From: a virus
IMG/VR virus record: IMGVR_UViG_3300028581_001523
Location: 1 to 48,328 of that record
Length of the DNA stretch: 48,328 bases
Reading direction: 5' to 3' (one strand)
Shown: piece by piece, positions 1,218 to 48,328 of the stretch
How positions within the stretch are numbered: position 1 is the stretch's first letter
Layout of the letters: the number at the start of each line of letters is the position of its first letter
Notes under the pieces: generated by a model
Database searches by the model: none
The model's input: the letters and a program-made list of their open reading frames with translations, nothing else
Told to the model about the DNA's origin: nothing
Program-made: the position numbers and the translations under genes

Positions 1218-1709
1218 ATGGAGATAGTAACTAAATCGAGAGATCTTTCACTTACAGATTTCTATTCTATTCTACAACGTGAGTATATTTCATACTTTAT
1301 TCGTTCCCAAATCTACCCACCAGAGTATGCTAAAAAGTATACTAACTATTGTATCTGTAAAAAAGATAAGATTGAGAAGATTGGTATAAAGAACTGTCTT
1401 CCCTCTATCTTCAACATGTGTACTTTGAAAGAGAGATACGTTGATAGTTTCTTCAATGAATATGGACTCCCTAATTTTGAGTATAGAGATGAGAATAGTG
1501 TCAAGATAATGGGAAGATACGATAAAGAGTATTTCTTTTCGGAGGGAACTAGTATCAAGGTTAAAACTGATAAAGGAGTAGAAATCACTGTGGTCTTAAA
1601 GAATCTATTTAACATCAATAAGGTGATTACAGAGATCAATGGGGAGACACGTCAATACAACTATGAGTTCATTTCAAGGATCATTTCTGAAAGTCTAATT
1701 AATTTTTGA
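1218..1709 (+). CDS. Hypothetical protein next to primase
   Basis: This 163-residue protein starts one base after the primase stop and is probably cotranscribed with it. It is rich in Tyr, Ile, Lys and Asn with scattered cysteines (a YCICKK segment near residue 45 and an FNMCTL segment near residue 67) but no motif I recognise. The C-terminal half looks beta-rich. No signal peptide or membrane segment is visible. The position suggests a replication role, but the sequence does not show one. Confidence 0.6.
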   Translation: MEIVTKSRDLSLTDFYSILQREYISYFIRSQIYPPEYAKKYTNYCICKKDKIEKIGIKNCLPSIFNMCTLKERYVDSFFNEYGLPNFEYRDENSVKIMGRYDKEYFFSEGTSIKVKTDKGVEITVVLKNLFNINKVITEINGETRQYNYEFISRIISESLINF

Positions 1710-1731
1710 AAAAACATAACTTTTATATTTT

Positions 1732-1758
1732 TCGTATCGATATTTTTATTATTTTTAC
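1732..1758 (+). promoter_or_regulatory. Putative promoter upstream of small gene and queD
   Basis: The 74-base gap after the stop at 1709 is almost pure A+T. It contains TATTATTTTTAC at 1747-1758, which resembles the TATTAATTTTAC boxes found before other transcription units in this window. It would start the unit running into queD, queE and folE. No clear -33 TTTG is seen at the usual distance, so this is tentative. Confidence 0.35.
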
Positions 1759-1783
1759 TTCATGAATTTAAAAATTTAAAACA

Positions 1784-2020
1784 ATGACGGACAAGAAAAT
1801 GGAGAAGATAAGTAAACAGATGTGTAAACTTATCCACAGTGAACCAGAAGAAGAATGGGCCGATATCACTTTATTCATTACTGTTGAGGCTGTTATCACT
1901 GGAGCAAGAGATACTTTTCAAGGCGTAGGCATTCTAGATGTGGCTAAGAAGCAGTATCTTGACCTTGCTGTACAAGTAGCAGAAGAAGAAACATATGGTC
2001 CAGACCCTGATAGAAGTTAA
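1784..2020 (+). CDS. Small acidic hypothetical protein upstream of queD
   Basis: This 78-residue acidic protein is encoded three bases before queD. Its N-terminus is Lys-rich (MTDKKMEKISKQM), followed by an amphipathic helical middle (AVITGARDTFQGVGILDVAKK) and an acidic tail. No enzyme motif is visible. The placement as first gene of the queD-queE-folE unit suggests it is expressed with the 7-deazaguanine genes, but nothing shows that it acts in that pathway. Confidence 0.55.
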   Translation: MTDKKMEKISKQMCKLIHSEPEEEWADITLFITVEAVITGARDTFQGVGILDVAKKQYLDLAVQVAEEETYGPDPDRS

Positions 2021-2023
2021 GAT

Positions 2024-2572
2024 ATGCAACTAATCACAAGAAAGTTCGAATTTGATGCAGGACATCGTGTAATGAATGAGAGAGTTAAGTGTTTCTCAAA
2101 TCATGGACATAGATACTATGGTGATTTAGTTTTCGAGTTCACTACTACTGAAGAGATTGGTTACAATATTGACTTTAAAGAGATTAAGAGAGTGGGATGT
2201 CAATGGATTGATGATTATTGGGATCATGGTACATTACTTAATCCACATGACACAAAACTTATCGATGTATTGAGAGAAATCAATACTAAAGTATGGCTAA
2301 TGTCTCTTAATGGAGAGGGAAATTATTGTAACCCTACTGTTGAGAATCTTTCGAGGGAACTATTTCTTGCACAACAGTTATTGTTTCAATCTGTTAAGGG
2401 TCTATCATTACATCAGATTCGGATGTATGAAACCCCTAATTGTTGGACTGATTGTTTCAATGAATCTATTTCAGATAGTGAACGTATCAATTTTCTAGAC
2501 GTACATAAGTCTGAGTTAGTACATTATGGTATTGATAAGGGAGTGTTTGAATATGATGATCGTAAGTTATAA
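2024..2572 (+). CDS. queD: 6-carboxy-5,6,7,8-tetrahydropterin synthase
   Basis: QueD converts 7,8-dihydroneopterin triphosphate to 6-carboxytetrahydropterin, the second step of 7-deazaguanine synthesis. The zinc histidines are visible as FDAGHR (His14) and FSNHGH (His27, His29), with the catalytic Cys23 just ahead of the second motif. A WDHGTLLNPHD segment and a late PTVENLSREL segment carry the other conserved His and Glu of the PTPS/QueD fold. At 182 residues it is longer than a typical 120-150 residue QueD, with extra sequence in the middle and at the C-terminus. It stands just before queE and folE. The fold is firm; a PTPS-like side activity cannot be excluded from sequence alone. Confidence 0.9.
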   Translation: MQLITRKFEFDAGHRVMNERVKCFSNHGHRYYGDLVFEFTTTEEIGYNIDFKEIKRVGCQWIDDYWDHGTLLNPHDTKLIDVLREINTKVWLMSLNGEGNYCNPTVENLSRELFLAQQLLFQSVKGLSLHQIRMYETPNCWTDCFNESISDSERINFLDVHKSELVHYGIDKGVFEYDDRKL

Positions 2573-2590
2573 ACTAAATCTACACAATAT

Positions 2591-3349
2591 ATGTTTACAG
2601 ATTTTGATAAAGTAAGACAAATTATTGACCTCCATACCTGCATACAGGGTGAAGGTAAGTTTACTGGAGTACCACATCTATTAATAAGACTGAGTGGGTG
2701 TAATCTTGGGTGCATGTTCTCTGAGTGGTTATGTGATACTGCTTATGCTTCTTGGAAACCAGAGTCGGGGAAGTATAATCTCAATGATGTTTTAAAACTC
2801 ATTTCTGATAATACACAGATTAATCATACATTTATTACAGGTGGTGAACCTACTATTCACCCTGTAATACTGAGAGAAATTGTAAATATATTGAAGGCTA
2901 ATGGCCATTTTGTTGCAATTGAAACTAATGGTACTAGTTACGTTGATTGTAATATTGATTTTGTTACAATGAGCCCTAAGTTAAGTAATTCAATCCCAAT
3001 CCCTGGTACTATGATCAAGAATGATATAGTTGATCGATTAGCAACTATTGAAGATCGTGATAAACAGAGCAATGGACGATATAGACCAGATTCACTTTTA
3101 TTGTGGATGGAACATAAAGATTACCAGTTTAAGTTTGTTTGTACTACTGATGAACAACTTAATGAAATTGAACAGATTAAAACTAGACTTAACATCCCTA
3201 AAGATCATATATACTTAATGCCTGAGGGAGTGACAGCTGAACAATTACAGAGACGTAGACCTTGGTTAATTGAGAAGTGTATAGAACGTGGATACAATTA
3301 TACCGATCGTCTTCATATAGTGGCTTATGATAATAAAAGAATAGCATGA
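2591..3349 (+). CDS. queE: 7-carboxy-7-deazaguanine synthase (radical SAM)
   Basis: QueE rearranges 6-carboxytetrahydropterin to 7-carboxy-7-deazaguanine using SAM and a 4Fe-4S cluster. The N-terminus has the substrate loop IQGEGKFTGVPHLLIRLSG, then the cluster cysteines Cys37, Cys41 and Cys48 and CDTAYASWKPE. The spacing C-x3-C-x6-C differs from the usual CxxxCxxC by a four-residue enlargement; I believe similar insertions occur in other phage and archaeal QueE proteins. The SAM-binding GGEP motif is at residues 84-87. The end overlaps the folE start by four bases, indicating coupled translation. The call is firm from motif and context. Confidence 0.92.
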   Translation: MFTDFDKVRQIIDLHTCIQGEGKFTGVPHLLIRLSGCNLGCMFSEWLCDTAYASWKPESGKYNLNDVLKLISDNTQINHTFITGGEPTIHPVILREIVNILKANGHFVAIETNGTSYVDCNIDFVTMSPKLSNSIPIPGTMIKNDIVDRLATIEDRDKQSNGRYRPDSLLLWMEHKDYQFKFVCTTDEQLNEIEQIKTRLNIPKDHIYLMPEGVTAEQLQRRRPWLIEKCIERGYNYTDRLHIVAYDNKRIA

Positions 3350-3936
3350 TAACAAACCAGAAACTAAAGTCAGCTGAACTAGCTTATGCTAGATTTATGG
3401 ATGTAATACTCCCTGGCTGGAGAACAGACCCAAACTCAATGGATACACCCAAGAGAGTGGCTAAGATGTATCTGAAAGAACTTTTTTCTGGCATTCATGA
3501 AGAGAAACCTAGAATAACAGTCTTTGAGAATGTCGATGTCTACGATGGTATGGTTTTTCAAGGCAATATCGAAATTAAGTCAGTGTGCAGTCACCACCAT
3601 GCATCTATTTATGGAGTCTGTCATGCAGCTTACTTACCAGGTCCATCTAATCGTATTATAGGTCTTTCAAAACTGAATCGAATCGTTGAGTACTATTCTC
3701 GTAGACCTCAGGTTCAGGAGAATCTTACTATGCAGATACATAACGCGCTGAGAGATATTTTCGAAGATAGTTTAGGTATTGCTATTGTGATTGAAGCTAA
3801 GCACTTATGTGTATCACATCGTGGTATTAGACAGAATTCAACAATGAAGACATCAAAACTAAGTGGGTGCTTTATTGATGACAATAGTAAGTCAAGAGAT
3901 GAGTTTTATAGGTTTGTAAGTGACTTAAAAAAGTAA
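3346..3936 (+). CDS. folE: GTP cyclohydrolase I
   Basis: FolE opens GTP to 7,8-dihydroneopterin triphosphate, the entry step for 7-deazaguanine synthesis. The zinc ligands are Cys81 and His84 in SVCSHHHA and Cys155 in KHLCVSHRGIRQ. The family segment RIIGLSKLNRIVEYYSRRPQVQE is also present. It is 196 residues, the usual bacterial size. The more common SLCEHH motif is SVCSHHH here, which still supplies both ligands. It overlaps queE by four bases and is followed after two bases by a MazG-like gene. A phage folE beside queD, queE, queC and queF makes a DNA modification role more likely than folate synthesis. Confidence 0.92.
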   Translation: MITNQKLKSAELAYARFMDVILPGWRTDPNSMDTPKRVAKMYLKELFSGIHEEKPRITVFENVDVYDGMVFQGNIEIKSVCSHHHASIYGVCHAAYLPGPSNRIIGLSKLNRIVEYYSRRPQVQENLTMQIHNALRDIFEDSLGIAIVIEAKHLCVSHRGIRQNSTMKTSKLSGCFIDDNSKSRDEFYRFVSDLKK

Positions 3937-4707: not shown

Positions 4708-4725
4708 TTCTATTACATTTCTTAT

Positions 4726-10202: not shown

Positions 10203-10529
10203 ATGAACAATAACGAATTTCTTGAGTATCATAAACAATGTTGTGAGAAGTTACACCAGATTGTAACTAAAAAGAATCATGACTATGCTGGTTTCGATCA
10301 ACAAGATGCTTTTGCTAATTTCTCAGTAGTTGAGAAGGCTGGAATTACTTCGGTAGAAATCGGTTTCTTAACGAGGATGATGGATAAGATATCTCGAGTT
10401 AATTCCTTTGTTATACAAGGTGTAACACGCGTAGAGGATGAAAAAATCGAGGATACATTACTTGATCTTGCAAATTACTCAATTTTAATGGCTGGGTACA
10501 TTAAATCTAAGAAAAAGTGCAACAGTTAG
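10203..10529 (+). CDS. DUF1599 nucleotide-modification-associated protein
   Basis: The segments HDYAGFDQQDAFANF and IEDTLLDLANYSILM match the small DUF1599 family, which has been linked to nucleotide modification genes in phages and bacteria. The N-terminal half is helical and the RMMDKISRVN stretch is typical. It closes the queC region; its end overlaps the GTG start of dnaE by 13 bases. Biochemical role is unknown; a nucleotide-binding or hydrolysing all-alpha protein is plausible because the fold resembles MazG-like proteins. Confidence 0.72.
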   Translation: MNNNEFLEYHKQCCEKLHQIVTKKNHDYAGFDQQDAFANFSVVEKAGITSVEIGFLTRMMDKISRVNSFVIQGVTRVEDEKIEDTLLDLANYSILMAGYIKSKKKCNS

Positions 10530-13500
10530 AACTATATTTACAGTCACAGAAGATAGATTACAAAGTATTGTTTGAGTCAGTTGTTGAGATTGACGGACAT
10601 ACTTATGAACTAGTGAAACCAACTGATGGGAAGTTATTTGATGAGAACTTTCATCTTCTTGCAGACTCTACAGAGAGTGATCACTACATCTTCAGTTTTG
10701 GTGGACAATGGTATTCTACACCCAGAGGGATTGAGAAGAAACCAAAACTAAATAGAGTTCGATTCTTAGGTAAGACTACTGATGGACTTCAAACTAGTTC
10801 ATTTTTAGGTGTAAGAGGTGTCTATGAAGTACTGAATGGGTCTGGACAGTACTCAGAGTGGGTTCAGAAAGCTAAGTTTCTAGGTGTCGAAGTCCTTGGG
10901 ATATGTGAAAGAAACTCGTTGGCTGGAGTCCTGAAGTTTCAGATAGAGTGTTTACAGAATAGTATTCGACCCATTATTGGAGCCACCTACACAGTATATC
11001 GTAAGAACGAAGATTATCGATATGACATAAAGTGTTATGTAAAAAATGAGAAAGGGTGGATTAACCTACTACTGATTAATAAAGAGGTGAATGTTGTCAA
11101 TAACAAGTTTATTGAAGAAGAGAAGTTGTTTGAACTCACAAATGGATTATCCATAGTACTTGACCCTAAGTCAATTTCTTACGATAAGTTATTCCCAATT
11201 GATCTTAGAGATGTAGAACTATTCTATCAACTGGACACTGTTGTGTATGATCAAGAAGATCGTGATAAAGAATATCTTCTAAATCTTAAGAAGTTTGTCT
11301 GTAGTGGGTTACAACCTATATCAATCACAGATGCTTTCTACCTTAATGTGGAAGATGCATTTATTAAAACAAAATTAAATCAAATTTCAAACATATTTGA
11401 ACATAAGTCATCAAATCAATATTTTAAGAGTAAAGAAGAGTACTTTGAAGAACTTGATAATGTGTTTAAGAATGAAGATCGTTCTTTTCTCTTTTTTCAA
11501 CGTTCAATATCTAATGAACTAAAACTTGTTAATGAATGTCGATTTCAGATCCCTCAAAAGGGGAAGTATCTTCCTGTATATAAGATGACAGAAGAGGAGA
11601 GTAAAAAATTTGAGACAAATCAAGACTTATTCTGGGATCTAATTATGAAGGGACTAGATAAGAAAGTCCCAAAACACAAACATATAGGATATCTTGAACG
11701 TATTAATACTGAGGTTGAAGTTATTGAACTTGGCCACTTAGTTGATTATTTTTTGATTCTTTGGGATATTGTAAAGTGGAGTAATGAACACGGAATATTA
11801 ACAGGAGTTGGCAGAGGTTCCGCGGGAGGGAGTCTTGTTTCGTACACACTTAATTTAACACATATAGACCCTATTGAATTTGGTTTACTATTTGAACGAT
11901 TTTTGAATAAGGGAAGAGTAGAAGGCGGATCAATGCCGGACGTGGATTTGGATTTTTCTGGTGAAAGAAGAGATGAAGTAAAGAGATATATGGAGGAGAG
12001 ATATGGTATTCATCAAGTATTTTCTGTTGGTACCTATAACACTTTGAAACTAAAGTCTGCTATTAAGGATCTTGCAAAACTTTATAATCTGGAGATTCAA
12101 GCAACCAACTATATTACAAGTATAATAGGTGAAGATTTTGAAGACATATCTTCAGGAACAGATATAGTATCAATATTTCAGACTGCCTGTAAGACAAAAC
12201 AGATTATGTCTTTTATTCAAGACAATTCGGAACTTGTTAATGATTTGGTTTCAGTTCTGAATCTCCCTAAGACACAGTCTATTCATGCCTGTGCAACTAT
12301 TATACTCCCCGACGAAAGAGATGTATTCCACTGGGTACCTGTTAAGAATATGTTGACAAAGAGTGGTGAAACATGTCTAGTATCTGAATGGGAAGGTGGT
12401 GAGTTAGAATCTATAGGACTATTGAAAGAAGATATTTTGGGTATTCAGCAACTTGACAAGTTTCAATTTATTCTCAATCTTATTAAGAAGAATCAGGGAA
12501 TTGATATCGATATCTATAATCTTGACTATACAGATGAAGTAGTATATAAGTACTTTCGTAAGGGGTGGAATCAGGATGTGTTTCACTTTGGGGCTAAGGG
12601 ATTAACACAGTATTGTAAGTTAAGTAAGCCAGAGACCCTGGGTGATCTAATAGCAGTGATTTCACTTTTTCGGCCTGGCCCTATTGAATCAAATCTTCAT
12701 AATGAGTATGTTCTCCGTAAAGAGGGACAAAAAGAAACTGAGTATCTTTGGGGGACAGAAGAAATTACAAAAGATACATGTGGAATCTTAGTTTATCAGG
12801 AACAGATTATGAAGGTCTGTGTTGATGTAGGTGGATTTTCACTTGTAGAGGCTGATGATATTCGTAAGGCTCTTGGTAAGATGAAGACAAAATATTCAGA
12901 CCCTTATAAGGTGAAGTTTATTGAAGGGGCCGTATCGAGAGGATGTCCACAATCAGAGGCTGAAAATATTTGGACTGTGATGGAGCGGTTTGCAAAGTAT
13001 GGATTTAACGCCTGTATAAGTGGAAGTGAAAGATTTTATAGAACTTCACAAACTAAATCAGGCAAATCTACTTACTGTCCTACTATTGAGGAAATGTATC
13101 GTATAAAGAATGACTATTTGTATGCAAAATCTGTAGGGAAAATCCCACTATATAATCGTTATCGTGATTCTTATGGGAACTCATTTTCACTAAATGAAAG
13201 TGGAAAACTTATTAAGAACCAGATAGTTGATATTAGATTTGTAGGGGTTAGATCTGTATATAAATTAACACTAGTAAATGGAGTATCAATTAAAGTTACA
13301 CAAAATCATAAGTTCCCAACGGATAATGGGGAGAAGAAATTAGAAAATCTAGTTATTGGTATTGATAAGATCTATTATAATTTAGGACACAAATCTGAAT
13401 TAACGGGGTTTAATTTTACTGATAAGGGAATATCATGTACTAAGTATCATCCAACAGCAAAAGTTGAGAAGTTTGTATTAAATTCACAGGGTGGACATGA

Positions 13501-14809
13501 GGGTTTTGTTAAGAAAGGTGATACAAATTTTAAGACACTTTATGATTATGAATTGAACTATAAGAAAGACTATTGTGAAAGTGAAACATGTACTGGGATA
13601 AGTAAGCGACTGGAAGTACATCATAAAGATCAAGATAATAGTAATAGTAACCACTCAAACTTAATTACTCTCTGTGCTTCTTGTCATAAAAAAGAACACT
13701 ATCGACTAGGTCGTACAAAGATGGGAATGAAGGGTCTTGAAACAGAGTTGGTTGATATTCGTGATATCATTTATGATGGTGAAGAAAATGTCTATGATGT
13801 TGAGATGTTAGACCCATATCATACCTTCACAACAAGAGATGGGATAGTGACTAGTAACAGTCACGGGGCTGCCTATACTATTACTGGCTATATTTGTCAG
13901 TGGCTAAAAGTACATTATCCACTTGAGTTTTGGACATCGGCTTTTGAATATATTGATGAGTCAAAACGTGAAGAACGTACATCACAGTTTATTTCAGAGA
14001 TTAGTAAGACAGGTAAGATTAAGATAGTCCCAGCCGATATAAATTATTCAGAGATAGATGTTCGTTCAGATCATGATTCAAATTCAATTTATTGGTCTTT
14101 ATCATCTGTTAAACAGGTAGGTGGAGTGGCTATTGAACAGATTATGGGAGAAAGAGAGAAGAATGGGAAGTACTTTAGTTTTGATGAATTCTTGGATCGT
14201 CACACATTTACAGGCAGTAAGATTAATAAATCGCATATTGAGAACTTAGTTTATGCTGGTGCTTTTGATAAGATCGAGAATATTAACTCATCACTGGAAC
14301 GTATTAAGTTAATTACACACTATAGAACTAAGAGAAAGATTGTAGTTGATAAGTTGAAAGATAATTTTGTGATGGCTGGAGATACTATTTATGAGGACTA
14401 TTGGTGGGATCTACAACAAAAACGATTATCAGGTATTGCATTCTTTGATTATAGATCAATGGTTGAGAAATATATCAAAGGAGATTCACAGTACATAGAT
14501 CAAGATCAGTTTCAGTCATCTAACTTTACAAATCGTTATCTATCAACAGGTGGTTATATTGTAGAGTGTATTGAGAGGACTTCTTCTAAGAAGGGGAAAT
14601 ATTGTTCTTTATTAGTAGAGAGTAATTACGAGTTTTTGTTTGTATCAATCTTCCCAGACCACTATCAACAGTTATTAGAGAAGGGTATGGACTTTGTAAA
14701 TTCTAAGGGAAAGATTCTTCTACTTTCGGGACTAATTAAGACTGACGACTTTAAAAAACAACAGGTTATGAAGGTATGGGATAATTCAGAGATTGTGATA
14801 TTGGACTAG
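10517..14809 (+). CDS. dnaE: DNA polymerase III alpha subunit, intein-containing
   Basis: This is the phage replicative polymerase of the C family. It has a PHP domain (about residues 95-165), the GVGRGSAGGSLVSY fingers motif, the catalytic PDVDLDF with Asp475 and Asp477, an RPGPIESNLHNEY segment and FAKYGFNA followed after the intein by SHGAAYTI. Removing the intein leaves about 1148 residues, close to bacterial DnaE. The PHP start reads SFLGVRGVYEVLNG instead of the HxHSxYS-type motif, so its metal site appears lost. It starts at GTG 10517 inside the previous gene and is followed by dyad promoter P4. Confidence 0.93.
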   Translation: MQQLELYLQSQKIDYKVLFESVVEIDGHTYELVKPTDGKLFDENFHLLADSTESDHYIFSFGGQWYSTPRGIEKKPKLNRVRFLGKTTDGLQTSSFLGVRGVYEVLNGSGQYSEWVQKAKFLGVEVLGICERNSLAGVLKFQIECLQNSIRPIIGATYTVYRKNEDYRYDIKCYVKNEKGWINLLLINKEVNVVNNKFIEEEKLFELTNGLSIVLDPKSISYDKLFPIDLRDVELFYQLDTVVYDQEDRDKEYLLNLKKFVCSGLQPISITDAFYLNVEDAFIKTKLNQISNIFEHKSSNQYFKSKEEYFEELDNVFKNEDRSFLFFQRSISNELKLVNECRFQIPQKGKYLPVYKMTEEESKKFETNQDLFWDLIMKGLDKKVPKHKHIGYLERINTEVEVIELGHLVDYFLILWDIVKWSNEHGILTGVGRGSAGGSLVSYTLNLTHIDPIEFGLLFERFLNKGRVEGGSMPDVDLDFSGERRDEVKRYMEERYGIHQVFSVGTYNTLKLKSAIKDLAKLYNLEIQATNYITSIIGEDFEDISSGTDIVSIFQTACKTKQIMSFIQDNSELVNDLVSVLNLPKTQSIHACATIILPDERDVFHWVPVKNMLTKSGETCLVSEWEGGELESIGLLKEDILGIQQLDKFQFILNLIKKNQGIDIDIYNLDYTDEVVYKYFRKGWNQDVFHFGAKGLTQYCKLSKPETLGDLIAVISLFRPGPIESNLHNEYVLRKEGQKETEYLWGTEEITKDTCGILVYQEQIMKVCVDVGGFSLVEADDIRKALGKMKTKYSDPYKVKFIEGAVSRGCPQSEAENIWTVMERFAKYGFNACISGSERFYRTSQTKSGKSTYCPTIEEMYRIKNDYLYAKSVGKIPLYNRYRDSYGNSFSLNESGKLIKNQIVDIRFVGVRSVYKLTLVNGVSIKVTQNHKFPTDNGEKKLENLVIGIDKIYYNLGHKSELTGFNFTDKGISCTKYHPTAKVEKFVLNSQGGHEGFVKKGDTNFKTLYDYELNYKKDYCESETCTGISKRLEVHHKDQDNSNSNHSNLITLCASCHKKEHYRLGRTKMGMKGLETELVDIRDIIYDGEENVYDVEMLDPYHTFTTRDGIVTSNSHGAAYTITGYICQWLKVHYPLEFWTSAFEYIDESKREERTSQFISEISKTGKIKIVPADINYSEIDVRSDHDSNSIYWSLSSVKQVGGVAIEQIMGEREKNGKYFSFDEFLDRHTFTGSKINKSHIENLVYAGAFDKIENINSSLERIKLITHYRTKRKIVVDKLKDNFVMAGDTIYEDYWWDLQQKRLSGIAFFDYRSMVEKYIKGDSQYIDQDQFQSSNFTNRYLSTGGYIVECIERTSSKKGKYCSLLVESNYEFLFVSIFPDHYQQLLEKGMDFVNSKGKILLLSGLIKTDDFKKQQVMKVWDNSEIVILD
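13013..13858 (+). mobile_element. DnaE intein with HNH endonuclease
   Basis: A 282-residue intein interrupts dnaE at residues 833-1114. It begins with Cys1 (CISGSERFY), has the block B-like VKVTQNHKFPTDNG region, an HNH nuclease (LEVHHKDQDN, then ITLCASCHKKEH) and ends VTSN before a +1 Ser (SHGAAYT). The terminal Ser-Asn pair is also seen in the Npu DnaE intein. The extein junction reads FAKYGFNA/SHGAAY, a few residues downstream of the split-intein site of cyanobacterial DnaE, and this is the polymerase motif that must be intact for function. Splicing therefore looks required. Confidence 0.88.
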
Positions 14810-18176: not shown

Positions 18177-18202
18177 TTTGATACAGAATTTATTAATTTT
18201 AC
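18177..18202 (+). promoter_or_regulatory. Promoter of the GIY-YIG gene
   Basis: Directly after the sbcD stop, TTTG at 18177-18180 and TATTAATTTTAC at 18191-18202 form a promoter-like pair without the upstream dyad. The same layout, starting at the stop of the previous gene, precedes the decayed GIY-YIG copy (23488) and the TnpB-like gene (48205). Confidence 0.6.
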
Positions 18203-18210
18203 TTTTTATT

Positions 18211-18271
18211 CCAGGAGGACAGGGGATGCAACCCTTTCTAAAACTTCCAGCAGTTTTAGATTACTCCTTGG
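18211..18271 (+). promoter_or_regulatory. Predicted three-way-junction RNA in leader of GIY-YIG gene
   Basis: Complementary blocks fold into a compact shape. CCAGGAG (18211-18217) pairs with CTCCTTGG (18264-18271, one bulged T). Inside, AGGG (18221) pairs with CCCT (18232) and CTAAAACT (18238-18245) pairs perfectly with AGTTTTAG (18252-18259). It would begin a few bases after the transcript start. This may protect the RNA or delay translation of the nuclease whose ATG is at 18307. The pairing is seen; the function is inferred. Confidence 0.5.
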
Positions 18272-18306
18272 ATTTATTTCGGCTGGACGTTATAAATTCA
18301 CCTATC

Positions 18307-19137
18307 ATGGCAGCTTCAAAATTTTACTTTGTTTACAAAACAACCTGTATCCTAACTGGGTTAATTTATGTTGGTGCTCATAGGACTAATAAATTAGAGG
18401 ATGGCTATATTGGTCATGGAATTTATAGATCTATAAAAGATAGTGAGAATGTAATCAATGGACTTTCACTGGCTGTTAAAACTTACAATTATGTAAATTT
18501 TAAAAGAGAAATTTTAGAGTTCTGTAGTTCACTCGAAGAGATGCAAGAACGCGAAGTCTACTGGCAGAGAAAACTAGATTGTACTAATCCCTTAGTTGGT
18601 TATAATCTTAAGATAAGTAAGGCGGGTGGTCATAAAGAAGATTTTAAACATTCTGAAGAAGTAATAGAAAAGCAAAGAGAGTTTATGAAGGGAAGAGTAG
18701 TTGGTGAAAAGAACCCATTTTATAAAAAGAAACATTCAGATAAAACAATAAAATATTTACATGATATTAATATCGGTAAAAAGCACTCTAATGAAACAAA
18801 AGAGAAATATAAACTAAGACGTGGTGAGAAAAATGGTATGTTTGGTAAGTTAGGGAAAGATAGCCCTAATTATGGACAGACTAGGTCTAAAGAAACTAAA
18901 TTAAAGATGAGAGAGTCTGCAATAAATAGACCACTAATTGAATGTCCTCATTGTAATTATCAAAGTCCGCACAAAGGACTTATGATTATTAAGCACTTTG
19001 ACAATTGTCCTCAGAACCCTAATTACGTTCCAAAAGAAGATACTAGACCTTTATTGACTTGTACTCACTGTGGGTATCAGTGTAAAAATAAAGGTAGTAT
19101 GATGGCTAGTCACTTTGATAAATGTAGATATAGGTAA
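18307..19137 (+). CDS. Freestanding GIY-YIG homing endonuclease with zinc fingers
   Basis: The N-terminal nuclease domain has GLIYVGAHRT and DGYIGHG (residues 18-38), the GIY and YIG motifs. The middle has three NUMOD3-like repeats (KNPFYKKKHSDKT, GKKHSNETKEKYK, SPNYGQTRSKETK). The end has two CxxC-H-C zinc fingers, CPHC at 213-216 and CTHC at 252-255, each closed by HFDxC. The ATG at 18307 was chosen because the decayed copy at 23606 begins at the matching codon; the frame is open further up to 18178. It is inserted between sbcD and recA, and is driven by its own promoter and structured leader. It most likely moves itself into unmarked phage genomes. Confidence 0.88.
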   Translation: MAASKFYFVYKTTCILTGLIYVGAHRTNKLEDGYIGHGIYRSIKDSENVINGLSLAVKTYNYVNFKREILEFCSSLEEMQEREVYWQRKLDCTNPLVGYNLKISKAGGHKEDFKHSEEVIEKQREFMKGRVVGEKNPFYKKKHSDKTIKYLHDINIGKKHSNETKEKYKLRRGEKNGMFGKLGKDSPNYGQTRSKETKLKMRESAINRPLIECPHCNYQSPHKGLMIIKHFDNCPQNPNYVPKEDTRPLLTCTHCGYQCKNKGSMMASHFDKCRYR

Positions 19138-19154
19138 CCATATAAATTTGTACT

Positions 19155-21440
19155 ATGAACGAAAATAAACAGAAAACTATTAGTGATGCTATTTTATCAA
19201 TTGAAAAACGTTTTGGCAGAGGGTCGATACTAGATTTTGAAACAGGCATTAAAGATGTTGAGTTTATCTCTTCAGGGTCTATTGGATTGGATTATGCATT
19301 AGGTGGTGGATTCCCAAGGGGGAGAATTATTGAGGTCTATGGACCGGAATCATCAGGTAAGTGCTTAACAGAGGACTCTTATATACAAACTAGTAGAGGG
19401 TTTAAGTCAGTACAGGAAATTTTTGAAGAAACAGAAAATGATCTTACTATTTCACAAAAAGAAGTTGAGTATCAATATTCTTCACTAGTAAATCGTTTAG
19501 GGCAACTAGAGGATACATCACATCTAGTATATAATGGACGACAACCTATTTATAAAATAAGAACTCAGACTGGTTTTCTATTAAAACGTACATATAAACA
19601 CCCATTACTAGTAGTATCCAAAAATGGAAATTTTATATGGAAGTATTCAGGGGTGATACAAGAAGGTGATTACTTAGTAAATCATAGAAGTAGATTTTTT
19701 GGTATAGGAGAAAGAGATCTTGATACTTGTTATTCAATTGGTTTATTACTTGCTGATGGGTACTTAGGTGGGACTATAAGTATAAGTAATGATGATCCCT
19801 GTATTAAACAATTTATAGAGACAAAAATGTCTCAGTCACTAGATTTTAGTAGATGTGATAAGTCACCAAGTGATAGTATAAGTGGACAGTCATTTGGGTA
19901 TGATTTTAGATTAAATTTAAAAGGTCAGAGATCAAATAAAACAATTCAGAAACATTTTTATGAAAAATTTGATCTTAAAGTAGGGGTTGCAAAAACTAAG
20001 TACTTCCCTAAGTGGATTAGAGAACTTAATGAAGAGTGTATGTCTGCTGTTATACGTGGTTATATGGATTGTGAGAGTTATATTTGTGAAACAGGTTTAG
20101 AGGTATGTAGTGCTAGTTACACACTATTATATCAACTTAAATTAATGCTTTCACAGTTTGGGATTGTATCATTTTTTGGAAATTCAGGTAAGGTTAAGGG
20201 TTATGAACAGAATGACTACTATAATCTCTATATTTATGGTGAAGATTTCCAACTATATATAGATAAAATTGGGACAGATTCACTTTATAGACGTAATCAA
20301 ATACAGCAGTATGTAGATACTAGAAGTAGTGTAGTACAAATTCAGACAAATTATAAACACATACCTTTTATTGAAGAACTAGTTAAAGATTTATATTATC
20401 AACAAGAAAATCGAGGTGGATTATTAAGAGAGTTACTTGAAGATATATTTTCTAGTTTTTGTAAAGTTACTTTTACTAGACTGAAGAAGATTCTAGAACT
20501 CTGTGAAGAAAGTAGACTAAAAACTCAGTTAAGTGAATTATTAGACTATTCATTTGAGAGAGTTGTACATGTAGAGAAAGTTGAAGAAACAATAAGAACT
20601 TTTGATTTTATAATGTCTAAAACTAGTTCTTTTACTGCTGATGGGTGTATTAATCATAACTCAACTCTAGGCCTACATGCTATTGCTGAAGCCCAAAAAG
20701 AAGGTGGTGTAGCTGCTTATTTGGATAGTGAACACGCTTTCGATTCTACTTATGCAAAGAACTTAGGTGTTGATCTTTCAAAAGAGACACTTTTATTTTC
20801 ACAACCCGATAATGGTGAACAGGCTTTGGAGATTGCTGAGATACTTATAAGAACAGGAAAGATTGACATTATTGTAATTGATTCAGTAGCAGCATTAATT
20901 CCTGCTGCTGAGCTGGCTGGAGACATGGGTGATTCCAAGATGGGTCTACATGCAAGACTTATGTCACAGGCTCTTCGTAAGATTTGTGGTGCTGTGAGTA
21001 AGTCAAATACCATTGTAATTTTCATCAACCAGTTACGTGATAAGATAGGAATTCAATTCGGTTCTTCTGAAACAACTACTGGTGGAAATGCACTTAAATT
21101 CTATGCTTCACAGAGGTTGGACATACGTAAGACAGCGATGAATAAAGATGGGGAAGAGGCTGTATCAAACACTGTTAAGGTGAAGGTTGTGAAGAATAAA
21201 GTAGCTCCACCTGCCAGATTCACATCATTTGATATTGTTTATGGTAAGGGTATCAATAAGATAGCTGAAATTGTATCTCTTGGTGTTGAACTGGGAATCA
21301 TAAAGAAGAGCGGGTCGTGGTTTTCGTATGGTGAAACCAAGTTGGGACAAGGGAGTAAGGCTGTTGAAGATATCTTAAACGACAACCCTGAACTACAGGA
21401 TGAATTGACAGCATTAATCAGACACAAACTTAAAAGTTAG
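19155..21440 (+). CDS. recA: RecA recombinase, intein-containing
   Basis: RecA carries out strand exchange. The exteins total about 328 residues, a little shorter than bacterial RecA. Motifs include [10 protein letters not shown], the Walker A GPESSGK/STLG joined only after splicing, [22 protein letters not shown], the L2 region [24 protein letters not shown] and a short C-terminus. The intein splits the P-loop between Lys69 and the next Ser, so unspliced protein cannot bind ATP. The gene stands between the GIY-YIG gene and sbcC. Confidence 0.94.
19362..20660 (+). mobile_element. RecA intein with LAGLIDADG (DOD) endonuclease
   Basis: A 433-residue intein occupies residues 70-502 of the RecA precursor. 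It starts with Cys1 ([16 protein letters not shown]), has a block [10 protein letters not shown], two endonuclease motifs ([12 protein letters not shown] and [11 protein letters not shown]) and ends CINHN before a +1 Ser. Both catalytic acidic residues of the endonuclease motifs are present, so homing activity is possible. It sits inside the P-loop, a site that is strongly conserved in potential targets. Confidence 0.92.
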
Positions 21441-23461: not shown

Positions 23462-23469
23462 ATAAATTT

Positions 23470-23499
23470 TTATTCTAGTATAAAGTTTATTAATTTTAC
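23470..23499 (+). promoter_or_regulatory. Promoter of the decayed GIY-YIG copy
   Basis: Directly after the sbcC stop the sequence TATTAATTTTAC at 23488-23499 repeats the box before the intact GIY-YIG gene, preceded by similar ATTTTTATT sequence. It now probably drives the RuvC-like gene at 23771 or a short leader peptide. Confidence 0.55.
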
Positions 23500-23502
23500 A
23501 GT

Positions 23503-23579
23503 GCAGTTCAGTTATATGAAAAATCTAAACCCTCATTCGTTCACATTGCCTAATGATCAATCTTGATCGACTGGACTGC
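23503..23579 (+). promoter_or_regulatory. Predicted structured leader with 10-bp closing stem
   Basis: GCAGTTCAGT (23503-23512) pairs over its full length with ACTGGACTGC (23570-23579), with one U-G pair. Inside, GATCA (23555) pairs with TGATC (23564). The primary sequence differs from the leader at 18211, but both put a closed stem at the start of the transcript. The shared layout suggests that structure is what has been kept. Confidence 0.45.
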
Positions 23580-23605
23580 CTTTGTGTTCGGATGGGGTGT
23601 TTTTT

Positions 23606-23770
23606 ATGGCAACTTCAAAATTTTACTTCATCTACAAAACAACCTGCATTCCAACTGGATTAATCTACGTTGGTGCTCATCGAACTAATGATCTCAATGA
23701 TGGTTACATTGGACAAGGGATCTATTATTAAGAATCACTTTGACAACTGTAAATTAAACCCAAATAAACT
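23606..23770 (+). pseudogene. Decayed GIY-YIG endonuclease with internal deletion
   Basis: The first 41 codons (MATSKFYFIYKTTC...GYIGQGIYY) match the start of the intact gene at 18307 (MAASKFYFVYKTTC...), then a stop follows at 23729-23731. The next bases encode IIKNHFDNC in a shifted frame, matching the first zinc finger of the intact gene near residue 227. So roughly 185 codons are missing, and the second finger too. It still keeps a promoter and leader. The remaining short peptide lacks the nuclease domain beyond the GIY and YIG motifs and is unlikely to cut DNA. Confidence 0.85.
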
Positions 23771-43681: not shown

Positions 43682-43782
43682 TGGGAAGATCGTTTAACGG
43701 TAGGACGTTCGGCCTGAAACCAGATTGAGATTGATTTAGTTTGGGGGTGCTGATCATATAGGTTCGAATCCCTCCAGGTCCA
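43682..43782 (+). tRNA. Degenerate tRNA-like element
   Basis: A D-arm (CGTTTAACGGTAGGAC at about 43691-43706), an anticodon-like hairpin (CGG, loop CCTGAAA, CC) and a T-loop (GGTTCGAATCCC at 43761-43772) occur in order, with CCA at 43780-43782. However, the 5' and 3' acceptor strands do not pair, position 33 of the loop is C instead of U, and the region between the arms is about 30 bases longer than usual. It may be a tRNA remnant, a tRNA with an insertion or a structured RNA. The anticodon would be UGA or GAA depending on the loop. Confidence 0.4.
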
Positions 43783-43802
43783 CATTCTTATAACTTATAC
43801 CA

Positions 43803-47324: not shown

Positions 47325-48182
47325 ATGAATATTGAAGATAAGATCAATCAGAAACGTAAAGAAGAAGAAAACTTCATCCAGAAGTCACTACCTGTAACAT
47401 TTGGTGAGATGAAAGAAGATATCATTAAAGCCAAGAAGGCCGAGATAGGTACTATATCAACTCATGGTGGTGTTAAAATGCGTAAGGAAGCAAATGGGTG
47501 GGTTCCTGTAAAAGAGGGTAGTGGAGAAAAGAAAACGCAAGATAACGAAGAGAAACCGGGTGTAACACCAGAAGAATTAGCTGAACATGCTACAAAGGTA
47601 TCAGAGGCTGCCTTAATGAATGCAACCAAACAATCTACTGATCCATCGGTACGTCAGGCAGCTCATAAGGAACTCCAACGTAGGAAGAACGAGGAGGCAC
47701 AGGAGACATTTAAGGCACCTGAGGGTGAGAAAAAGAAAGATGAAGAACCCGATATGAAAGATATGATGAAGAGGGGTCTTCATGCAGCCGATAATAAGAA
47801 GAAAGAGACTGAGTCTGGTGGATCTAAGAAACCCCCAGTTGAACCACCTAAAGTAGATGAGAAGGCCAGTGAAGATGAAAAGTCTAAGAAGAAAGAAGAA
47901 CCAAAAAAAGAGGGAAAAGAAGGGTTAGGTAAAACTAAGAGTGGTAAAGAGATAAGTATCACCCAGAATGCCAAACTGGAAGCAACCTACACTCCTCAGG
48001 ATCATATGGATGCTGCTTACACACTATTAGATGGTTTGAAGAAGATGAAACCAGAAGATGCAAAGAAAGCAAATGATAGAATTGCTGATGCATTTGATAG
48101 GCATATAGCTTCAGCCAAACATAAGGCTTTACAGAATATTGTAGAGAAAGAAAAGAAGAATAGAGAATCTAAGAAAGATTAA
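47325..48182 (+). CDS. Highly charged protein downstream of portal, possible scaffold
   Basis: A 285-residue protein that is mostly Lys/Glu and low in hydrophobic residues, with only an HGGVKMRKEANGWVPVKEG segment near residues 47-65 resembling a short folded domain. The centre (about residues 70-210) looks disordered and the end is helical. Charged proteins like this beside portal genes often act as scaffolds or head-maturation partners, but the motif does not prove it. Confidence 0.45.
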   Translation: MNIEDKINQKRKEEENFIQKSLPVTFGEMKEDIIKAKKAEIGTISTHGGVKMRKEANGWVPVKEGSGEKKTQDNEEKPGVTPEELAEHATKVSEAALMNATKQSTDPSVRQAAHKELQRRKNEEAQETFKAPEGEKKKDEEPDMKDMMKRGLHAADNKKKETESGGSKKPPVEPPKVDEKASEDEKSKKKEEPKKEGKEGLGKTKSGKEISITQNAKLEATYTPQDHMDAAYTLLDGLKKMKPEDAKKANDRIADAFDRHIASAKHKALQNIVEKEKKNRESKKD

Positions 48183-48204
48183 GTTTTTTTATTGGTACTC
48201 TATT

Positions 48205-48241
48205 TATTAATTTTATATACAATTATAGAAAATGTTGTATA
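48205..48241 (+). promoter_or_regulatory. Promoter with overlapping stem-loop before TnpB-like gene
   Basis: TATTAATTTTAT at 48205-48216 repeats the box seen before both GIY-YIG copies. TATACAA (48216-48222) pairs with TTGTATA (48235-48241), directly before the ATG at 48246. Because the stem starts at the promoter box, a transcript from this promoter would probably lack part of it, whereas a longer read-through RNA would contain it all. Confidence 0.5.
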
Positions 48242-48245
48242 AAAA

Positions 48246-48328
48246 ATGAAAACTTATCAAATAAGATTATTTCCATCAAAAGACCAGATAAATCAATTAC
48301 AGGAACTATCCGATATAAGAAAAAATAT
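48246..48328 (+). CDS. TnpB-like (IS605 OrfB) protein, N-terminal part
   Basis: The visible 27 codons read MKTYQIRLFPSKDQINQLQE then LSDIRKN. This matches the N-terminus of TnpB/OrfB proteins of IS200/IS605-type elements (a KxYxxRLxPxxxQ start followed by a leucine-rich helix). The gene runs past the window end. No TnpA is seen upstream, so it may be a freestanding RNA-guided nuclease acting like the other homing genes here. Confidence 0.65.
   Translation, partial: MKTYQIRLFPSKDQINQLQELSDIRKN

Follow-up and report, generated by a model that had tools for sequence, protein, structure and literature searches.

The TnpB locus and its neighbourhood

The window, which is the whole 48,328-base virus record, is classed as linear, and the nearest named records of its portal protein are those of Bacteroidota phages (Chryseobacterium, Bacteroides). 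The portal gene (PF04860) immediately precedes a gene of 285 amino acid residues, called as an open reading frame on the plus strand (47325..48182). Right behind the stop codon of the latter lies a T tract (48184..48190, plus strand), at which a terminator scan found no terminator-like stem. Open reading frame and homology together place the start of a TnpB-like gene on the same strand at the ATG at 48246, from which it runs for 27 codons off the end of the contig (48246..48328); these final 83 bases of the window translate to MKTYQIRLFPSKDQINQLQELSDIRKN. A sister contig (L001), which shows six differences over 9 kb, supplies 12 additional bases and then likewise ends, so that the two contigs together yield 31 full codons, MKTYQIRLFPSKDQINQLQELSDIRKNIWNR (C-terminal ...IRKNIWNR), and both stop within the first 32. 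A search of other viral contigs for continuations of the gene returned L001 alone. Since two assemblies break at the same point, the data suggest that the gene is present in several versions within the samples. In a distant relative (L002), the 285-residue gene is present (57% over residues 1-134), and TnpB does not stand behind it.

Elsewhere in the window, inteins are found in DNA polymerase III alpha (10517-14809; HNH, a weak match) and in RecA (19155-21440; LAGLIDADG). The 3′ half of a tRNA-like sequence (GGTTCGAATCCCTCCAGGTCCACA) occurs at 43690-43790, where ARAGORN makes no call.

Identity of the TnpB lineage

TnpB is the ancestor of Cas12. The 31-residue piece matches HTH_OrfB_IS605 (PF12323) with an E value of 7e-4 and 19.4 bits, just under the curated cut-off of 21. 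Relatives were collected by a degenerate-start search of viral contigs followed by protein searches, which yielded complete TnpB genes at 12 distinct phage loci, plus partial copies; the full-length proteins have 402-412 residues, and the TnpB start in the window is nearly identical to theirs. The one full relative that was scanned matches PF01385 (OrfB_IS605; 2e-9), PF07282 (Cas12f1-like TNB; 1e-8) and PF12323 (7e-7), each score exceeding its curated cut-off. Because of these domains, and because the family profile matches solved TnpB structures, the label is well founded for the lineage; the catalytic region of the window copy lies beyond the contig. The earlier note had called the gene TnpB-like, and homology supports this through the near-identical start and the TnpB domains of the relatives, the window itself showing 27 codons. 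A single scan of bacterial genomes returned no relatives; the TnpBs in public phage records all share less than 60% identity, and less than 30% among the matches listed. An AlphaFold model of one relative (L012) was poor (pLDDT 55) and was left out of use.

In the TnpB proteins of L012-L021, Gly replaces the RuvC-II Glu, and an invariant Glu327 stands just ahead of a zinc-finger region that has lost its cysteines, a pattern from which an alternative active site is possible. TnpBs with an alternative RuvC2 glutamate (Ealt) are known (PMC10711439). The relatives resemble these in that the usual RuvC-II position has no Glu and an invariant Glu comes just before a degenerate zinc finger, and differ from them in a RuvC-I motif of DLG rather than DPG and in the loss of the zinc-finger cysteines. 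As to genomic setting, a tmRNA gene carried by the phage immediately precedes TnpB in L020 (2469-2818), and a tRNA gene is found about 900 nt from TnpB in L017. The phage of L022, a relative of that in the window, has at 1450-3742 a HEARO RNA and an IscB-like HNH gene joined to the 3′ portion of a TnpB; a small palindrome marks the point of joining.

A promoter-like box shared with ordinary genes

Thirty nucleotides before the TnpB ATG lies a promoter-like box, ATTTATTAATTTTA (48202..48215, plus strand), the last 11 nucleotides of which form a core, TATTAATTTTA (48205-48215). The 14-nt box recurs exactly at 18188..18201 on the plus strand, with a similar 22-nt upstream flank, ahead of a GIY-YIG/NUMOD3 homing-endonuclease-like gene (18307..19137, plus strand; PF07460, 9e-13) related to phage GIY-YIG homing endonucleases. 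It is found again before a truncated second GIY-YIG copy with a strongly structured leader (23462-23770), there with one mismatch in the 14-mer and an exact 11-mer (23485..23498, plus strand). The sharing of the box between the TnpB gene and the GIY-YIG gene, as the earlier note had it, is therefore exact over 14 nt. Its further description as a homing-nuclease promoter is not upheld, since the box is not specific to nucleases. The core occurs at seven exact sites where 0.03 are expected, all of them on the plus strand and intergenic, with none on the minus strand, and four of the seven precede ordinary genes (4812; 25025; 34038, single-strand-binding-like; and 43044). The distance from the box to the likely ATG is 27-46 nt at the ordinary genes, and the 30 nt at TnpB are similar. 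From its repetition and position the box is most likely a general promoter element of the phage, rather than one reserved for homing nucleases.

The 22 nt upstream of the TnpB box are identical at 15 positions to those of the first GIY-YIG copy (shuffle p 0.001); the same flank has 12 matches with the second copy and 7-9 with the ordinary genes. The likeness of the flank is counted as one resemblance, because the copies of the GIY-YIG gene appear to be close duplicates of each other. A scan found neither a sigma-70 promoter nor an intrinsic terminator at the TnpB leader. The score of the site with the window's own promoter matrix was non-significant (p 0.13), significance coming from the exact box.

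A palindrome, TTTATAATCATTATAAATTA, was also noticed upstream of ordinary genes at 4725, 14819, 24912, 33950, 40242 and 42929, where 0.04 matches are expected. It is frequent at ordinary promoters and absent from those of the nuclease genes, and could possibly be an operator or a terminator.

A hairpin overlapping the box and the start codon

The TnpB leader is almost entirely A+T, with no evident Shine-Dalgarno sequence. An inverted repeat (48207-48222 and 48235-48250) is complementary at 14 of 16 positions, and the best predicted hairpin, at -7.2 kcal/mol, pairs 48210-48214 and 48216-48223 with 48234-48241 and 48243-48247. Its 5′ arm (48210..48223, plus strand) consists of ATTTT at 48210-48214, a mismatched A, and TATACAAT at 48216-48223; its 3′ arm (48234..48247, plus strand) comprises GTTGTATA at 48234-48241 and AAAAT at 48243-48247, thereby pairing the A and U of the start codon. 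Both arms fall in the portion conserved among TnpB relatives, and GTTGTATAA, from the 3′ arm, is the best conserved stretch of the family leader. The geometry that had been proposed, a stem overlapping the promoter, holds as described, the 5′ arm lying over the 3′ part of the box and its core (48205-48215).

The same proposal held that TnpB shares this hairpin architecture with the GIY-YIG genes. The leaders of the latter, of about 105 nt, are structured (z -2.1 and -2.9), and some of their predicted stems extend to the start codon; their structures sit downstream of the box, whereas the 5′ arm of TnpB overlaps it. The GIY-YIG structures would therefore be carried on direct and read-through RNA alike, and the comparison fails. 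The GIY-YIG leader at 18202-18306 reads open in frame as well, AGGAGG preceding an upstream ATG, and may be a coding extension.

The pairs are A-U or G-U save for one C-G, which makes the hairpin weak. In an 88-nt fold it is no better than chance (z -0.56); in the 51-nt leader p is about 0.04; and the window has no Rfam match. The ordinary fold and the nearly pure A+T composition would suit chance self-complementarity of an AT-rich leader, with TnpB expression then driven simply by the phage promoter or by read-through. We consider this explanation unlikely in view of the family, whose leaders exceed both shuffled sequences and other AT-rich leaders from these phages, and whose arms co-vary. 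Fourteen TnpB leaders fold better than their shuffles with a combined z of -5.25, and better than 69 other gene leaders of the same phages with p 7e-6; the leaders are mutually related, so these p-values are optimistic and overstate independence. RNAalifold on a MAFFT alignment of the leaders gave no consensus structure, probably because the arm positions shift in AT-rich sequence, after which per-leader folding and arm-swap tests were used. The 5′ arms suit their own 3′ arms better than swapped ones, permutations reaching the observed mean in 13 of 5000 cases. Arms that have changed and yet remain paired include TATACAA/TTGTATA in the window, TTTATGTAT/ATACATAAA in L042 and ACTTAT/ATAAGT in L014 and L016. 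The start-codon hairpin thus appears to belong to the TnpB lineage, and that of the window is accepted as real on account of its conservation in the family, not from its own fold.

An inverted repeat that overlaps a putative promoter could also be a DNA operator, at which TnpB or another protein binds and represses, and autorepression of I-TevI through such an operator is known (PMC2988022). Among the relatives the loop, which is not conserved, measures between 4 and about 18 nt, and the arms differ in sequence; the 3′ arm keeps its place at the start codon. Such changing arms and loops suit a folded RNA better than a site for a dimer, and an operator is in our judgement distinctly improbable.

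Nor does the hairpin look like a transposon end. A left end of an IS200/IS605-type element, that is, a TnpA recognition hairpin unrelated to expression, would accord with its place at the left margin of the family homology, and phages do carry TnpB-only IS605 elements, as passages on Campylobacter phages describe (PMC2853527). Four relatives (L017, L019, L020 and L021) nevertheless have a separate hairpin of left-end type, with a TCTTTAG or TCTTCAG loop, about 90-130 nt upstream of TnpB. That upstream hairpin resembles the type found at right ends, which in the relatives read GAAAC-stem-TCTTTAG-stem-TAGTTCAT, and no loop sequence is conserved in the start hairpin. The end hairpins lying elsewhere in the relatives, the start-codon hairpin would therefore be a second, separate structure, and we give its identity with a left end very little credence. 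A left-end hairpin of the TCTTTAG type is absent from the 63-nt gap upstream of the TnpB in the window. In G009, G010, G017 and L019-L022, two kinds of TCTTTAG-loop hairpin (right-end, with TAGTTCAT; left-end, with ATGAA) recur, repeatedly in some phages.

Predicted effect on read-through and direct transcripts

Transcripts from the upstream gene (47325..48182) would run into TnpB, and the start regions of such read-through RNA were compared by predicted openness. The TnpB leaders have a mean of 0.26 versus 0.52 in 466 control leaders (p 6e-6), and the window, at 0.11, falls in the lowest 2% of the controls. For an RNA starting 20 nt before the ATG, the predicted value in the window is 0.71. 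The predicted gain in openness is 0.36 in TnpB leaders versus 0.11 in controls (p 4e-4). Three of the 14 leaders fit poorly: that of L021 leaves the start region open even on read-through RNA, removal of the 5′ arm opens it no further in L018, and in L017 it hardly changes.

If the box is the promoter, the direct transcript would start about 6-10 nt past 48215, inside or beyond the 5′ arm. Because the putative promoter overlaps this arm, direct RNA should lack it and read-through RNA should hide the start codon. A TnpB gene of a phage-borne lineage sits directly behind the stop codon of the portal-adjacent gene, and we surmise that its leader combines two overlapping parts, the ordinary promoter box of the resident phage and a hairpin specific to the lineage, with its 5′ arm in or just behind the promoter and its 3′ arm ending at the start codon. 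Read-through RNA, holding both arms, would fold and conceal the start region; RNA initiated at the box, lacking the 5′ arm, would stay unfolded and translatable, and TnpB would be made only upon use of its own promoter. Lineage identity, the general nature of the box, conservation of the hairpin, co-variation of its arms and the predicted difference in openness are computed results; the promoter function of the box, the transcript start and the translational block are inferred. We regard the chances of this joint reading, in which TnpB is silent on read-through RNA and made from its own promoter, as evenly balanced. The hairpin has probably been kept so that TnpB stays silent on read-through RNA.

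A bolder idea is that of a swappable promoter-in-hairpin module: as the lineage moves, the promoter half would be exchanged for the box of the new phage and the start-codon hairpin retained, so that TnpB would always be silent on read-through RNA and be turned on only within the time program of its resident phage. Promoter matrices place a promoter-like motif of the relative's own phage on the 5′ arm in L014 (p<0.001), L017 (0.002), L016 (0.017), L038 (0.04) and L018 (0.061), and gave no significant motif in L012, L041 and L043. With p at or below about 0.06 in five of the eight relatives tested and not in the other three, the notion that every relative carries the promoter motif of its own phage is partly supported, and the module as a whole is offered tentatively, as rather doubtful.

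Comparison with known systems

In IS10 and IS50, folding of the read-through transposase RNA blocks its translation. Little was found in the literature on control of TnpB expression, and no published TnpB leader hairpin was found in the literature searched, most subscription journals lying outside its coverage. The Campylobacter elements ISCaje1-3 are TnpB-only IS605 elements without TnpA in lytic phages, according to passages of the paper describing them (PMC2853527); they resemble the present case in that a phage bears the TnpB gene, and those passages mention no leader hairpin.

In the homing endonucleases I-TevI and SegB of T4 and MobE of Aeh1, read-through transcripts have their start region concealed by a leader hairpin, and RNA from the gene's own promoter is without the 5′ arm (PMC2988022). 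Here too a selfish phage nuclease gene has its leader parts in the same order, the transcripts being predicted. The known cases have a very stable hairpin over the Shine-Dalgarno sequence and a T4 late promoter (PMC2988022), whereas the present hairpin is weak, nearly all A-U, and pairs the start codon, and the nuclease is an RNA-guided TnpB. By analogy, read-through silencing of the I-TevI kind is plausible for TnpB, since the 5′ arm and the putative promoter overlap; that the family has conserved the hairpin strengthens the case.

IS200 seems an equally close precedent. Its leader hairpins act against outside transcription, as a terminator of impinging transcripts, and at the ribosome site (PMC3196728). 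The likeness lies in a mobile gene of the IS200/IS605 superfamily with a leader hairpin, whose protective role is here predicted (PMC3196728); the differences are that IS200 carries tnpA and a separate terminator hairpin, whereas here the gene is tnpB, a search for a terminator hairpin was negative, and the promoter box belongs to the phage. The result is a directly testable leader of about 60 nt. If it does silence TnpB on read-through RNA, RNA-guided selfish nucleases of phages would be wired like homing endonucleases and insertion sequences.
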